Source of the DNA: Dorea longicatena | GTDB lineage: Bacteria > Bacillota > Clostridia > Lachnospirales > Lachnospiraceae | Reading direction: 5' to 3' | Length of the DNA stretch: 64,000 bases | Assembly: GCF_024168045.1 (NCBI RefSeq) | Contig: NZ_CP100126.1 | Coordinates: 761,501-825,500 of the forward strand | Part shown: piece by piece, positions 45,069 to 63,058 of the stretch | Numbering within the stretch: position 1 is the stretch's first letter | Layout of the letters: every line of letters begins with the position of its first letter | Made by a program: the position numbers and the translations under genes | The notes under the pieces: model-generated | The model's database searches: none | The model's input: only the letters and a program-made list of their open reading frames with translations | What the model was told of the DNA's origin: nothing

Positions 45069-46498
45069 TAAAGGGAGCAATATTCGATGTAGACGGAACT
45101 TTGCTGGATTCCATGGGGATATGGAAAGATGTAGGGGTGCGTTATCTGAACAGCATCGGCATAGAGGCAGAACCGGATCTTGGAAATATATTATTTACAA
45201 TGAGTATTCAGGAAGGTGTGCAATATGTAAAAGAGCATTATCATCTGTCACAGGAAATAGAGGAAATCGAACAGAACGTTTTGGATATTATCAGCGATTA
45301 TTATAAAGAAACGGCACCGCTGAAGAGCGGAGCGGTAGAACTTCTGGAGAAGCTTCGTAACAGTAATATTCCAATGACGATTGCATCTTCCAATAATAAG
45401 AAAGAAATAGAGATGGCGTTTGAACGTCTGGAAATTGCAAAGTATTTTGATCGGATCTTCACCTGTGAAGAAGCAGGTGCAGGAAAGACGAAGCCGGATA
45501 TTTATCTGCAGGCAGCGGAATATCTTGGAAGCAGACCGGAAGAGACGCTGGTATTCGAGGATGTTATCCATGCAGTCCGCACTGCAAAAAAGGCAGGATT
45601 CCAGGTTATAGGAATCTATGATGAAGCAAGTAAGGATGATCAGGAAGAGATTCAGAGAGAAGCAGACTGCTATTGCAGAGAATGGAGGGAACTGATGAAA
45701 AAAAAGACAGCACTTACAATTGCCGGAAGCGATTCAAGCGGAGGTGCGGGAATTCAGGCAGATATTAAGACCATGCAGGCAAACGGAGTCTATGCAATGA
45801 GTGCGATCACAGCATTGACTGCACAGAATACGACAGGTGTTACCGGGATCATGGAAGTATCTCCGGAATTCCTGGAAAATCAGTTAGATGCGGTCATCAC
45901 TGATATCCGTCCGGATGCAGTAAAGATTGGTATGGTATCATCTGAAAAGTTAATAAAAACAATATCAAAGAAACTAAAAGAATACCATGCGGAAAATATT
46001 GTAGTTGATCCGGTTATGGTGGCAACAAGCGGATCCCGATTGATCAGTGAAAATGCGATTGAGACTTTAAAAACACAGTTGTTACCGATGGCATCCGTGA
46101 TCACGCCGAATATCCCGGAAGCAGAAGTTCTTGCAGAGATGGAGATCCGGTCAGAAAAAGATATGGTGGAAGCAGCAAAGAAGATTAATGAAATGTATCA
46201 TTGTGCAGTTTTGTGCAAAGGCGGACACAGTCTGAACGATGCCAATGATCTCTTATACCAGAATGGCAAAGCAACATGGTTCCGCGGAAAAAGAATCAAT
46301 AATCCGAATACCCATGGAACAGGCTGTACTTTATCCAGCGCAATCGCCTCCAATCTTGCAAAAGGATACTCCCTGGAAGAATCCATTCATCGTGCGAAAG
46401 AGTATATCAGCGGTGCACTGGCCGCCATGCTGGATCTGGGGAAAGGAAGCGGACCGATGGATCATGGGTTTGAGATAAGAGGGAGATTTGGGATTTAA
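45065..46498 (+). CDS. thiD: HAD phosphatase / HMP-P kinase (ThiD) fusion
   Basis: 477 residues with two domains. Residues 1-~205 are a HAD IA phosphatase (FDVDGTLLDSMG, TIASSNNKKE, KPDIYLQAAEYL, VFEDVIHAVRTAKKAG), like beta-phosphoglucomutase-type enzymes. From Met211 the protein is ThiD: ALTIAGSDSSGGAGIQADIKTM, VVDPVMVATSG, CKGGH and NTHGTGCTLSSAIASNLAKG. GGAGGG (45684-45689) stands 5 bases before the ATG of Met211, so a separate ThiD could also be made. The HAD half is a candidate thiamine-phosphate or pyrimidine-phosphate phosphatase. Confidence 0.92.
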   Translation: MIKGAIFDVDGTLLDSMGIWKDVGVRYLNSIGIEAEPDLGNILFTMSIQEGVQYVKEHYHLSQEIEEIEQNVLDIISDYYKETAPLKSGAVELLEKLRNSNIPMTIASSNNKKEIEMAFERLEIAKYFDRIFTCEEAGAGKTKPDIYLQAAEYLGSRPEETLVFEDVIHAVRTAKKAGFQVIGIYDEASKDDQEEIQREADCYCREWRELMKKKTALTIAGSDSSGGAGIQADIKTMQANGVYAMSAITALTAQNTTGVTGIMEVSPEFLENQLDAVITDIRPDAVKIGMVSSEKLIKTISKKLKEYHAENIVVDPVMVATSGSRLISENAIETLKTQLLPMASVITPNIPEAEVLAEMEIRSEKDMVEAAKKINEMYHCAVLCKGGHSLNDANDLLYQNGKATWFRGKRINNPNTHGTGCTLSSAIASNLAKGYSLEESIHRAKEYISGALAAMLDLGKGSGPMDHGFEIRGRFGI

Positions 46499-46503
46499 TT
46501 CAG

Positions 46504-46754
46504 AAAGGCACGACGACCCGGACCTGCATAAAAAGTAGGAAGCCGTTCCTGTTCAGGTTCCGTCGGCGGGAAATACTAAAGCGTCAAAATTATGCTAAAA
46601 ACGGGCTTCCGAAATTTGCAACTCGCCATTCGGCTCAAACAGGCAAATTTCGAAAACCCAACGCATAATTTTGACGCTTAACTATTTCCAACACCTTCTT
46701 CACATTCACTGGAACGGCTTTCTACTTTTTATTCCGTGGGTGTCGAATGCCTTA
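46504..46754. repeat. Foldback (MITE-like) element, about 250 bp
   Basis: The 385 bases between thiD and the IS110 transposase are dominated by one long imperfect palindrome. Nested arms: AAGGCA/TGCCTT at the ends; 46530-46549 with 46711-46730 (19 of 20); 46569-46595 with 46663-46689 (25 of 27, including the exact 17-mer AAGCGTCAAAATTATGC); 46603-46619 with 46643-46659 (14 of 17). No long open frame is meant by it and no target duplication was found. It may also stop transcription from thiD. Confidence 0.85.
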
Positions 46755-46883
46755 CGAATGAAACCTGCTAAGAAAAGTCAATAATTATTTTTATCTTTTT
46801 TATTTTCTGTCACAAAATATATTTGCGTACCACAAATAGACTGTCTGATTGGCAGTCTAAAAAATTATTTATTTTATATAAGA

Positions 46884-48086
46884 TTATATATTTTTATATA
46901 GTTCGGTTACTCGAGCATAATAAATGCGTAAAAACTTATTTAATCCGGCTATCTTTGCTGATTTTTTACTTTTACCTTCTGATTCCTTTTTTACAACATA
47001 TCGGTAAACCGGATCTTCTGGTCTGGAACGCATTTTTAAACTTCTCATTGTTTCGTATCCTACTTTGCGCAATGATGCTGAACCACGTTTCGAGATTTTC
47101 CTATTACAACCTACAAATTGACCAGATTCATACGGTGGTGGATCAATTCCTGCGAATGCAACCAATGCCTTCCCGTTGCGAAATCTGCGAACATCTCCTA
47201 TTTCTGCAATTAACTTTGGGGCTAATGTATTTCCCACTCCACCCATTTCTCTTACAACCGAATATTCTGGCAAAGTCTTGGCTATTTCCTGCATCCGTGA
47301 TAAAATTAGACCAAGGGTTGCATCAACTTCCTTGAGCACCCGAACTGCTTCAGTCACCAGTATTTTGACCGATGAGGTTTCTGAAGGTAATGTGGGAATA
47401 CTTTCCTGAGCCAGGGTGTATATAACTTTGGCTTTTTCCTGGCTTGGGACGTATTTCTTTTCTTTTGCCCAAAGTATATACTCTTCAGTAAATTCCTGTT
47501 CAGACATAGATGTTATTACATCATAATGCCAAAAACGTTCCACAAAATCACTTCTTTTATCTTTCCGATTTGTTTCATTCCAACTTGCAAGAAGATTCTT
47601 TATTCCAGGCATGGTCAAATCTAAAAGATGGGTCAATTCAGCGAGAGATAAAAGATGAAGCTTCATATAATGCCGATATTGCTGTCCAAGCAACTTCAAC
47701 TCTTCATAAATCTCTCCAGAAGTTTGAAATTCTTTCATTTTAAACCAATGATCAATTCCATAATTAGCAATGATACGGGAATCAATCTTGTCGGTTTTGG
47801 CTTTTCGCAGACTTTCGTTACGATAACTTTTCATAAGATACGGATTAATTACAGAAACAAAAAATCCTTTTTCCTGTAAATATGTAAGAACTGGAAGATG
47901 ATAAATTCCGGTTGCTTCCATAACGATTTTGACTTCATCATTTAGTCTGAAAAGCATGGAAGATAATTCGCTTAAATCCTTTTGGGTATGGGTAATATTG
48001 AAAGGCTTACTAACAATCTCTCCATATGGTTTCAAAATACATACTGTACTTTTCCCTTTTGATACATCAATTCCTACGCTGATCAT
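46884..48086 (-). CDS. IS110-family transposase (DEDD recombinase)
   Basis: 400 residues, intact. N-terminal RuvC-like DEDD domain: VGIDVSKGKSTV, IVMEATGIYHLP and KAKTDKIDSRIIA. C-terminal Tnp20 domain: MGGVGNTLAPKLIAEIGDVRRF, ALVAFAGIDPPPYESGQ and SKRGSASLRKVGYE with the serine used in recombination. IS110 elements lack terminal inverted repeats and use a non-coding bridge RNA for target and donor choice. AAAGGAG precedes the ATG on the minus strand. A weak hairpin (46837-46859) lies after the stop. Confidence 0.94.
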   Translation of the reverse strand: MISVGIDVSKGKSTVCILKPYGEIVSKPFNITHTQKDLSELSSMLFRLNDEVKIVMEATGIYHLPVLTYLQEKGFFVSVINPYLMKSYRNESLRKAKTDKIDSRIIANYGIDHWFKMKEFQTSGEIYEELKLLGQQYRHYMKLHLLSLAELTHLLDLTMPGIKNLLASWNETNRKDKRSDFVERFWHYDVITSMSEQEFTEEYILWAKEKKYVPSQEKAKVIYTLAQESIPTLPSETSSVKILVTEAVRVLKEVDATLGLILSRMQEIAKTLPEYSVVREMGGVGNTLAPKLIAEIGDVRRFRNGKALVAFAGIDPPPYESGQFVGCNRKISKRGSASLRKVGYETMRSLKMRSRPEDPVYRYVVKKESEGKSKKSAKIAGLNKFLRIYYARVTELYKNI

Positions 48087-48128
48087 AATATACTCCTTTT
48101 CTTTTTATAGAATTGCAGTTGTTTATCC

Positions 48129-48309
48129 CATCTACACTTATTATGATTCAGTTTAGTTCGTTACGCGAAAGCTCCTGCGAGTTTCAACCTGCTTAAATGA
48201 ATGTTTATAATAAGGGGATGGCTGACGGTTTCATTCACGGATGTGAAAATCCTAATGGCAATATGTCATACCAACTACTTCCCTTATTATAATAAAATAA
48301 GTGTAGATG
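48129..48309 (-). ncRNA. Candidate IS110 bridge RNA region
   Basis: Non-coding stretch on the 5' side of the transposase, where IS110-group elements carry their bridge RNA. CATCTACACTTATT (48129-48142) pairs exactly with its inverse at 48296-48309, closing a 181-base domain. Within it TTATAATAAGGG (48205-48216) pairs exactly with 48281-48292, leaving a 64-base loop. Two nested, long-range perfect stems in a region of this size suggest a structured RNA. RNA strand and exact ends are inferred. Confidence 0.6.
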
Positions 48310-48341
48310 TTAGAGTTAATTACTCTCTAACAACTACACTT
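48299..48341. repeat. Hairpin competing with the bridge-RNA closing stem
   Basis: AAGTGTAG..TGTTAGAG (48299-48315) pairs with CTCTAACA..CTACACTT (48325-48341), 16 of 17. Its 5' arm shares bases with the closing stem at 48296-48309, so the two structures exclude each other. On the plus strand TTTT overlaps the end, giving a terminator shape. Confidence 0.7.
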
Positions 48342-48436
48342 TTATGGTACTAAATGGCAATTGCGTAACCGTAGTGGCCTCCACCGGGTTACACTTCCGG
48401 GCATTTTATTTATTAACATTCGCTGCCAGTCACGAC

Positions 48437-48650
48437 TTGAAGGAAACAATAGATAAGGATTATTGTGAATGTGGAATGCCATTAGAAATAGTTAGAGAGT
48501 CAGAAGCACCGTTAAAGGAACGAAGCGAACGTGTTTGAGGCGAACGCCGAGTTTGAGCGTAGTTCCTTTGCTTTTAGGTGATTCTGACTCTCTTAGTGTT
48601 TCTTATGGTATGGAACCTGAACAAGAAGCCTTATCTATTGTTTCCTTCAA
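48437..48650. repeat. Second foldback element, about 214 bp
   Basis: Part of the 607-base gene-free stretch between the IS110 and the radical SAM gene. A perfect 22-base inverted repeat forms the ends (48437-48458 with 48629-48650). Inside, GAGAGTCAGAA near 48495 faces TTCTGACTCTC, AAAGGAAC faces GTTCCTTT, and further short arms continue to the centre. The sequence is unrelated to the foldback at 46504. Short open frames on both strands here encode mirror-image peptides because of the palindrome and are not genes. Confidence 0.85.
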
Positions 48651-48693
48651 GGACTGAGAGGCCGCTTCCCCAGTTAATAAATTAAATCCCAAT

Positions 48694-50049
48694 TTACTTT
48701 TTGGCTTCCAGCCTCTCCGTCCAAAGCTTATCTGCCATTTTGGTCCAGGCTTCGGCATAAGGTTTGCATTTATCGCAGAGATGCTGTACATCTTCCGGTG
48801 ACTGTGGATCGGTAGAGTGGGCACCGGTCTCTTTTACCATCTTTGGTAAGCATTCCGGATTCTCAAGCATTGGACATGGGCGCAACATATTGTCATTGAA
48901 TGGCTGTCCTTTTCTGTATGCCTGGAAGATCGGACTCTTTAATGCATCCAGAAGACTGACTTCATGAATATTTGCATTTGAATAATGAATGAATACGCAA
49001 GGATCTACATCTCCCGCTGCATTGATATGCAGGTAATAGCGACCGCCTGCGATACATCCACCGATATATTCGGCATCGTTCTGGAAGTCCAGGCTAAAGA
49101 TTGGTTTGGAACTTCTGAACGCACGAATACGTTCGTATACAGCTTTTCGTTGTTCCGGATTCGGCATGAGTTCCGGAGCAGCATCATTTCCAACAGGCAT
49201 ATAATGGAAGAACCAGATGAACAATGCACCAGCTTCAATGATCATGTCATAGAATTCTTCACTTGTGATATCTTTGTAGTTTGCGCTTGTGTAGCAGGTA
49301 GAGATACCGAATGGAAGATTATGATCCTTTAATAACTGCATGGCATGCTTTACTTTTTCAAATACACCCGGACCACGCCGTCCGTCATTGGCCGTCTCGA
49401 ATCCTTCCAGACTGATTGCAGGAACGAAATTCTTAACTCTTAACATTTCCTGACAGAACTCTTCATCGATCAATGTACCATTTGTGAAAGATAAGAATTC
49501 GCAGTCAGGATGACGTTCACAGATCGTAATAATATCTTTTTTTCGTACCATAGGTTCTCCGCCGGTATAGATATACATATATGTACCAAGTTTCTTTCCC
49601 TGTGTTATGATATCATCGATTGTTTCAAGAGAAAGATTTAGTTTGTGTCCGTATTCAGCGGCCCAGCATCCGGTACAGTGCAGATTGCAGGCTGAAGTCG
49701 GATCTAATAAAATCGCCCAAGGAACATTACAGTCTTCTTTTTCCTCAGTTTCCTTCTGAAGGGCAGAACCTTTCAAAGAAGCATTAACGATAAAGTTTGT
49801 AAAGAAAGTTTTTCGTACTTCCGGATCCAATTTCCATACTTTTGTAGCAAGTTCATACCAGTTTCCCTTTTCGGCGATTCCCTGGCGGATCGCATTACGT
49901 TGACCTGCATACCAGCCTTCCGGAGCAGCCTTGTCAACAATGCTCATGACTTTTGGAATATTTGTTTCAGGATCTTTATCCATGTACTTAAGTGCTGCCT
50001 GAATAGCGGAAGCAAAGGCGGCGTTTTTGATTGTGTCTACAACATTCAT
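48694..50049 (-). CDS. Radical SAM protein with SPASM-like C-terminal cysteines
   Basis: 451 residues. Radical SAM motif C121-NLH-C125-TG-C128, glycine-rich YTGGEPMVRK and a TIM-barrel body. After GGCIAGGRYYLHINAAGDVDPCVF come several cysteines (RPCPMLENPEC, HLCDKCKPY), like SPASM auxiliary cluster sites. The N-terminal ~105 residues are a helical extension. Relatives in clostridia have no assigned reaction; no RiPP precursor is visible nearby. GAGGAGGTAAC precedes the ATG on the minus strand. Its end is 44 bases from the second foldback. Confidence 0.85.
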   Translation of the reverse strand: MNVVDTIKNAAFASAIQAALKYMDKDPETNIPKVMSIVDKAAPEGWYAGQRNAIRQGIAEKGNWYELATKVWKLDPEVRKTFFTNFIVNASLKGSALQKETEEKEDCNVPWAILLDPTSACNLHCTGCWAAEYGHKLNLSLETIDDIITQGKKLGTYMYIYTGGEPMVRKKDIITICERHPDCEFLSFTNGTLIDEEFCQEMLRVKNFVPAISLEGFETANDGRRGPGVFEKVKHAMQLLKDHNLPFGISTCYTSANYKDITSEEFYDMIIEAGALFIWFFHYMPVGNDAAPELMPNPEQRKAVYERIRAFRSSKPIFSLDFQNDAEYIGGCIAGGRYYLHINAAGDVDPCVFIHYSNANIHEVSLLDALKSPIFQAYRKGQPFNDNMLRPCPMLENPECLPKMVKETGAHSTDPQSPEDVQHLCDKCKPYAEAWTKMADKLWTERLEAKK

Positions 50050-62579: not shown

Positions 62580-62927
62580 GGGCTTGTACTGGTTTCGACG
62601 GGGGTCTGGAAGTTGGAGAAGCCATCCGTAGCGGGACACTACGTTAAAAGTTCCACTTAAATATAAACGCAGACAATACAGAATTAGCGTACGCAGCCTA
62701 ATTAGGCCGCAGTCGGCCCCAGATCATCCGCTGTCCGGGTCACCGGCTTCAAACAGGCGGAGCACTTCGTTTCCAAAGCTTTGAGGAGATGGAAGAACTT
62801 ATGAAGCTACTAAAGTGAGGAACCTGTCATTAGGTGCCGCATGGAGGGAATGTTAATATAATGACTGTGATGGGAGATGCTCGAATGGATGGGCTTTCGG
62901 ACGCGGGTTCAACTCCCGCCAGGTCCA
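62580..62927 (+). ncRNA. ssrA: Transfer-messenger RNA (tmRNA)
   Basis: 348 bases. The 5' end GGGCTTGTACTGGTTTCGACG and the 3' end GGGTTCAACTCCCGCC plus AGGTCCA form the tRNA-like part. The acceptor stem GGGCTTG/CAGGTCC has a G-U third pair, the alanine identity mark. The message part reads GCA at 62669 to TAA at 62699-62701, giving the tag ADNTELAYAA. The genomic sequence after A73 is CTA, so CCA must be added after transcription. SmpB is encoded 2.4 kb upstream. Confidence 0.97.
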
Positions 62928-63058
62928 CTATAATATTAAGTAATACGGAGAACGTGTCATGGGCGGGTTTTCTTATATACTTAAGAACACAGAGGAAAGT
63001 CATAGTTTCTGAAGAATCGGTAAACTAGGGCTTTTCTTTTTATTTACGCGAGCAACGA

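Follow-up and report, generated by a model that had tools for sequence, protein, structure and literature searches.

The window, which is the whole stretch of 64,000 nucleotides from Dorea longicatena analysed here, raises the question of what two large palindromes are doing on either side of an IS110 insertion sequence. A first-pass annotation described two unrelated foldbacks around an intact transposase, and regarded them either as targets of the IS110 or as passengers moved by it in trans. The whole assembly occupies a 2,205-bp block (46488-48692) between thiD (+) and a convergent radical SAM gene (-), names that, like those of the other neighbours, were given by reading and without family models, the transposase excepted. 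The two foldbacks are genuine and exceed chance by a wide margin, none of 200 shuffles being as stable as either of them when folded as single-stranded DNA, and the perfect 22-base end repeat ascribed to the second one is indeed present. The coordinates first proposed were also nearly right, but they overlooked the 13-bp perfect inverted repeats that enclose both hairpins and the IS110, a third, small hairpin at ~48365-48392, and the location of the IS110 ends within the linker (Table 1).

Table 1. Features of the block between thiD and the radical SAM gene, in window coordinates.
Feature	Position	Strand	Basis or remark
Left terminal inverted repeat TTGGGATTTAATT	46488..46500	+	End common to G001 copies; includes thiD stop codon
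Hairpin H1 (first foldback)	46517..46752	+	Folding z = -10.2 (46504-46754)
H1 inner module	46551..46712	+	Covariance model R1, 179.3 bits; sequence used in building R1
Right target half (IS strand CATTC...)	46753..46760	+	Flanks the insertion on its left in + coordinates
IS110 element, ~1.59 kb including one AAA/TTT overlap copy that holds the core dinucleotide	46761..48351	-	L033, with no element around it, has these ends too
IS110 transposase ORF, 400 aa	46884..48086	-	Domain profile matches
Predicted bridge RNA region (leader)	48100..48345	-	Fold and alignment with a Pseudobutyrivibrio relative
Left target guide AUUGCCAUU	48254..48262	-	9-nt match to rejoined linker
Right target guide GAAUGAAA	48229..48236	-	8-nt match to rejoined linker
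Left donor guide AGCAGGUU	48186..48193	-	Matches IS110 right end, by eye
Right donor guide ACUAAA	48152..48157	-	Matches IS110 left end, by eye
Left target half TGGCAATTGC (IS strand GCAATTGCCA)	48355..48364	+	Flanks the insertion on its right
Small hairpin H2, short form	~48365..48392	+	~75 bp longer in L037; long also in L036
Hairpin H3 (second foldback)	48418..48665	-	Folding z = -11.7
H3 inner module, in the orientation opposite to H1	48465..48622	-	R1, 148.3 bits; sequence used in building R1
Right terminal inverted repeat AATTAAATCCCAA	48680..48692	+	Perfect 13-bp partner of left repeat

A first answer came from the nearest genome compared (G001, with 25% of 31-letter words in common with the window), where the foldbacks turn out not to be unrelated: each is one module, inverted with respect to the other, of a single dispersed element of 0.6-0.7 kb with 13-bp perfect terminal repeats. 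One G001 locus (L037) carries both hairpins without any IS110 as a single 687-bp unit, with terminal repeats as in the window, and related ends, of the terminal inverted repeat type of MITEs, are found in other G001 copies. Both foldbacks are multi-copy in this genome, with pieces of the element at about 15 loci, several of the copies being 95-99% identical at unrelated sites and others diverged or shortened. The thiD site itself carries in G001 a diverged element without IS110, and no module was found in ten stretches of another genome (G003) that align with the flanks of these sites, on both sides in seven cases and on one side in the others. By eye, the G001 copies show no consistent target-site duplication; L251 may have a 5-bp AATAT repeat, also noticed by eye. 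Moreover, inverted pairs of hairpins occur in G338 (L166) and G554 (L256, L257). We propose that the block in the window is one copy of this repeat, which runs from its left end through H1, the linker, the small hairpin H2 and the inverted H3 to the right end, and that the IS110 has inserted in the linker.

Other copies offered a more varied panorama. An IS110-filled element is also present in a contig (L082) of an uncultured Lachnospiraceae metagenome-assembled genome (MAG), which was dropped as a second species with the element, the remaining matches of this MAG being far more distant; since the remainder matches so poorly, L082 was treated as contamination, and it is probably a stray contig from the species group of the window. 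Compared with the G001 locus L034, its left flank and element are alike and its right flank past the element end differs, the result of either recombination between copies or misassembly of the MAG contig. In G001, a decayed module (L122:3048-3224) lies at the 3' end of a gene read as an aminopeptidase, a site where L082 shows a full IS110-filled element in the opposite orientation. At L039:5075-11728 (G001), the left and right halves of the element keep the same orientation 6.3 kb apart and flank a gene cluster read as corrinoid methyltransferase, in what looks like a split or rearranged copy. Finally, a gene read as an IS256-type transposase sits within H1 of yet another G001 copy (L042:3436-5301) with an apparent 8-bp duplication, which suggests that other insertion sequences also use these hairpins.

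What the hairpins have in common became visible when H1 was aligned with the reversed H3: the unpaired letters are the same and the stems are different. The earlier view of a common architecture without common sequence therefore holds for the stems, but not for the unpaired motifs shared by both foldbacks, namely the CTAA/TAAG steps, a CTAAAARC facing AAC(G), and AACTCG...CTCARACA at the apex. An alignment of 11 modules shows pairing in 95.0% of 438 cells and double changes at 31 of 40 pairs; no shuffled or slid alignment came near the observed paired cells, double changes or covariation, and the count of further pair types, attained by 121 of 500 shuffles, did not exceed theirs. A covariance model built on the core of the hairpin (R1) detected 27 of 397 genomes of the family Lachnospiraceae at E<=0.01, G001 included, and 23 at E<=1e-5, with best matches outside G001 down to E = 2e-22. 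Sequence alone was almost blind to them: a pattern search of the same 397 genomes and DNA searches of 98 relatives returned G001 only, and a further pattern scan added one stray contig, L082. The enlarged alignment of 29 modules from 22 loci, which leans towards structure since it was fitted to it, pairs in 92.5% of 1146 cells, with double changes at all 40 pairs and a covariation of 0.892, against 0.202 when shuffled and at most 0.162 when slid. A second model (R2) matched 30 of 391 genomes of the class at E<=1e-3, of which 27 belong to other families, and 16 at E<=1e-5; for both models E-values are approximate, at most seven candidates per genome were scored, and the weak matches, some of them partial, may be due to chance. 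The apex AACTCGC was seen by eye in 14 of the 15 class-search loci inspected (of 19), although the model favours such letters, and in every one of the 25 hairpins measured, complementarity of the arms extends 17-88 bp past the model edges, for total lengths of 191-336 bp.

These data suggest that each hairpin would be a member of a Clostridia-wide family of giant hairpins, with conserved helix lengths and unpaired motifs and hypervariable Watson-Crick stems. An origin of the outer stems as captured spacers was discarded because their lengths are constant and a residual similarity can be seen by eye. A scan of viral contigs for the apex motif gave 12 contigs, of which eight reach R2 E<=0.01 and four E<=1e-4. 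The viral contigs L204, L206, L207, L208 and L212 have hairpins with the same apex motif and low R2 scores, and the family may reach beyond Clostridia. Searches of Rfam with the hairpins gave no match at gathering score and nothing credible at E up to 5. The window as a whole has a single Rfam match at gathering score, a tmRNA gene at 62580-62930 (+). No description of the family appeared in a literature search whose scope lay outside most subscription journals and all supplements, and four apex strings had no occurrence in the papers searched.

Whether the arms are kept complementary as DNA or as RNA can be approached through their mismatches and double changes. In alignment A2, counted over the first 44 of 51 rows with seven antisense rows dropped, there are 28 G-U against 41 A-C among 1731 pair cells, and in A3 22 against 27 among 1146. 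The most distant set (A4) leans RNA-like, with 28 G-U and 11 A-C among 662. As a yardstick, 21 tRNAs from the same loci show 33 G-U and no A-C among 468, a figure to be read knowing that ARAGORN favours canonical pairs. Between the hairpins of G018 and G380, which have one flank in common at 89%, three of the four changed pairs are Watson-Crick double changes, counted in a 215-bp part that leaves out the outermost and visibly less well mirrored arms. Three comparisons of copies from G049 and G401, sampled matches that are not orthologous pairs, gave 26/32, 22/27 and 25/30 (73/89), with many transversions. Comparisons inside G001 were messier (1/10, 13/21, 8/24, 5/21, 10/21 and 5/28). We read these patterns as pointing to arms kept complementary as DNA and to unpaired motifs under selection, a reading with which an RNA function would be compatible. 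Complementarity could be maintained through template switching or arm-to-arm correction, through recognition as a DNA hairpin, or through both.

The strongest competitor, which we hold to be rather unlikely, takes the hairpins for structured RNAs of 3' untranslated regions, with roles in stability, processing or regulation, spread by recombination and complementary as DNA only as a by-product. Their genomic position fits such a role, given that, by rough longest-ORF calls, a same-strand gene ends with its stop codon no more than 75 bp ahead of the hairpin in 13 of 25 cases, and that in the window each module of the double element is oriented in sense with its converging neighbour gene; the upstream neighbour is on the same strand in 16 of 25 cases by rough gene calls, which alone is weak and suggestive only. 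The strong conservation of the unpaired motifs and the excess of G-U over A-C in A4 go in the same direction. On the other hand, G-U is the rarer mismatch in A2 and A3, many of the double changes are transversions (GC to CG) that cannot be reached via a G-U intermediate, and Rfam holds no credible relative. In our preferred reading of DNA hairpins, copies, which often lie at the 3' ends of genes, would be spread by a putative mobiliser, by ectopic conversion, or by both.

The insertion sequence tells a second part of the story. The first-pass call of an intact IS110 transposase with a structured leader was confirmed, as the product of ORF 46884-48086 matches both domains of the family, DEDD_Tnp_IS110 (E=7e-33) and Transposase_20 (E=7e-20). 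Relatives of the transposase at E<=1e-100 amount to 4162 among the 8000 candidates scored, and a single cluster at 100% identity contains 4139 sequences. Screening of plasmids and phages by megablast gave short matches to the IS110 leader in a single record of each kind, and element pattern scans of viral contigs gave none. The leader (minus strand, ~48345-48100) is predicted to fold into a two-loop RNA, whose target and donor loops were assigned following PMC11208160. When the flanks of the insertion are rejoined, the target reads on the IS strand GCAATTGCCA-TTT-CATTCG. The 9-nt sense match in the leader ends in the core (17 of 5000 shuffled leaders have one as long), and 3' of it the 8-nt antisense match starts in the core (74 of 5000 on its own); only one of 5000 shuffles reaches the summed length of both. 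In silico, the loops thus match both the target and the element's own ends, the donor guides having been assigned by eye, and the leader is predicted to encode a bridge RNA with two guides for the rejoined linker.

Two other IS110 elements, one on a Pseudobutyrivibrio plasmid (L213) and the other on a viral contig (L088), differ from that of the window in guide letters and flanks, and by eye their guides broadly agree with their own flanks, with mismatches. The bases that follow ...AGCAGGTTT differ in both, indicating that in the window it is the target that contributes the C at the junction. The TTT overlap at the IS110 ends would be compatible with a circular intermediate and recombination at the core dinucleotide. 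In G001, the IS110 is found between the two hairpins at three loci (L034, L035, L036) and outside any element at a fourth one (L033), within an ORF read as glycerol dehydrogenase; at this last site the right guide is well matched and the left one poorly, which suggests that targeting is leaky. By analogy with IS621 and REP elements, the bridge RNA would aim the IS110 at the linker, which would offer a harmless multi-copy landing site.

The proposal that the foldbacks are IS110 targets is thus well supported: the element is multi-copy in G001, it exists there with the IS110 (L034, L035, L036) and without it (L037), the guides match its linker, and the IS110 ends (46761 and 48351) lie in that linker and not far from both hairpins. 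The other proposal of passengers moved in trans finds no support, since IS110-free copies are dispersed in G001 and the ends of the element are unlike those of the IS110, and it is further disfavoured by the occurrence of the hairpins in many other genomes.

A related possibility is that the IS110-filled element is a composite that moves as one unit, so that a single insertion would explain all the filled copies. We regard it as unlikely, even if the composites of the window, L034, L035 and L082 are ~99% identical and all have the short H2. The four G001 copies of the IS110 are identical over 1603 bp, except for one flank-derived end position, and they include the one at L033, whereas the element parts around them differ: L036 has a long H2 and different H1 variants, and L034 and L035 a short H2. 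Since identical insertion sequences occupy one fixed linker position across differing element copies, the IS110 most likely entered this linker on more than one occasion, the alternative being gene conversion between copies. Spread of the composite as a unit is therefore largely refuted for L036, again with gene conversion as the alternative, and could apply within the short-H2 group.

As for a mobiliser of the element itself, the hairpins might be very large REP-like sequences moved by REP-associated tyrosine transposases (RAYT). Like REPs they are dispersed extragenic palindromes, they form inverted doublets (G001, L166, L256, L257), and an IS110 targets them as happens with REPs (PMC1525189). 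We consider this very improbable, however, because none of 28 RAYT-type loci (of 30; seven over the RAYT cut-off) had a module with its ~1.5 kb flanks included (best E 0.82), G001 gave no RAYT match, and the hairpins measure 191-336 bp. Strong RAYT matches (>=58 bits) were found in 6 of 24 hairpin-positive genomes vs 4 of 16 controls, defined by no R1 or R2 module match, with G003 judged by DNA searches and flank-aligned stretches only. Clustering of the ORFs at 35 loci gave six families present in at least three genomes, and reading them revealed no recombinase-like family common to these loci. As for ordinary terminators of convergent genes that happen to be long, this is scarcely credible: the window hairpins do lie between converging genes, but 46400-48800 holds a single terminator-like site, with a stem of 5 pairs in the linker region, and shuffles give more such sites on average, no rho-independent terminator (GC stem plus T run) was found at a hairpin edge in the window, the neighbour genes of L076 and L077 appear by eye to keep separate terminators, and conserved internal loops are not known as a feature of terminators.

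Altogether, we consider it probable that the locus contains a dispersed double-hairpin repeat into whose linker an IS110 was guided, and that its hairpins belong to a Clostridia-wide family defined by structure, with arms maintained at the DNA level. A more specific and tentative model, to which we give somewhat less than even chances, is that these are giant DNA hairpins recognised by their structure and a few unpaired bases, whose arms would be copied onto each other as DNA; stems would then be private and the signature shared, to be read by a host protein or a putative mobiliser, and one or more IS110 lineages would have tuned their guide RNA to use the hairpins as landing sites. Sequence searches are nearly blind to these repeats and structure models find them. 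The repeats may serve as a natural archive of the way in which long palindromes keep their arms complementary. Moreover, an IS110 whose guide can be read has in this element many copies of a landing site, and the conserved unpaired motifs open a clear search for the protein that reads them.

Among known systems, the preference of IS110 elements for palindromic repeats has already been described, and IS621, ISPa11, ISPpu9, ISPpu10 and ISRm19 are members of the family that insert in REP palindromes (PMC1525189, PMC11208160); the use of the foldbacks as targets is well supported and of a known kind, and the unexpected result is the hairpin family, apparently undescribed and hardly revealed by sequence searches. 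Our system shares with REP-targeting IS110s a transposase with a leader RNA (the RNA being shown for IS621) and a dispersed extragenic palindromic target, but the IS110 of the window has its target in the linker that joins two giant hairpins, with a core within TTT and not CT. The hairpins also resemble REPs and REPINs (PMC3116915) as dispersed extragenic palindromes, often in inverted doublets, and differ from them in having modules of 191-336 bp instead of tens of bases, conserved unpaired motifs and freely changing stems, as well as in their RAYT linkage, which none of the 28 loci showed. With MITEs and foldback elements they have in common a non-coding nature, terminal inverted repeats and several near-identical copies at unrelated loci; on the side of differences, no consistent target-site duplication was seen in G001 and no partner transposase among the 35 loci, and the hairpin family is held together by internal structure. 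Also comparable are the palindromic candidate structured RNAs of human microbiomes (PMC8040213), which are likewise palindromic, conserved in structure and found in gut bacteria; the four palindromic examples considered from that source are 80-132 bp long and mostly or entirely from Bacteroidetes, and an overlap with the hairpin family is possible.
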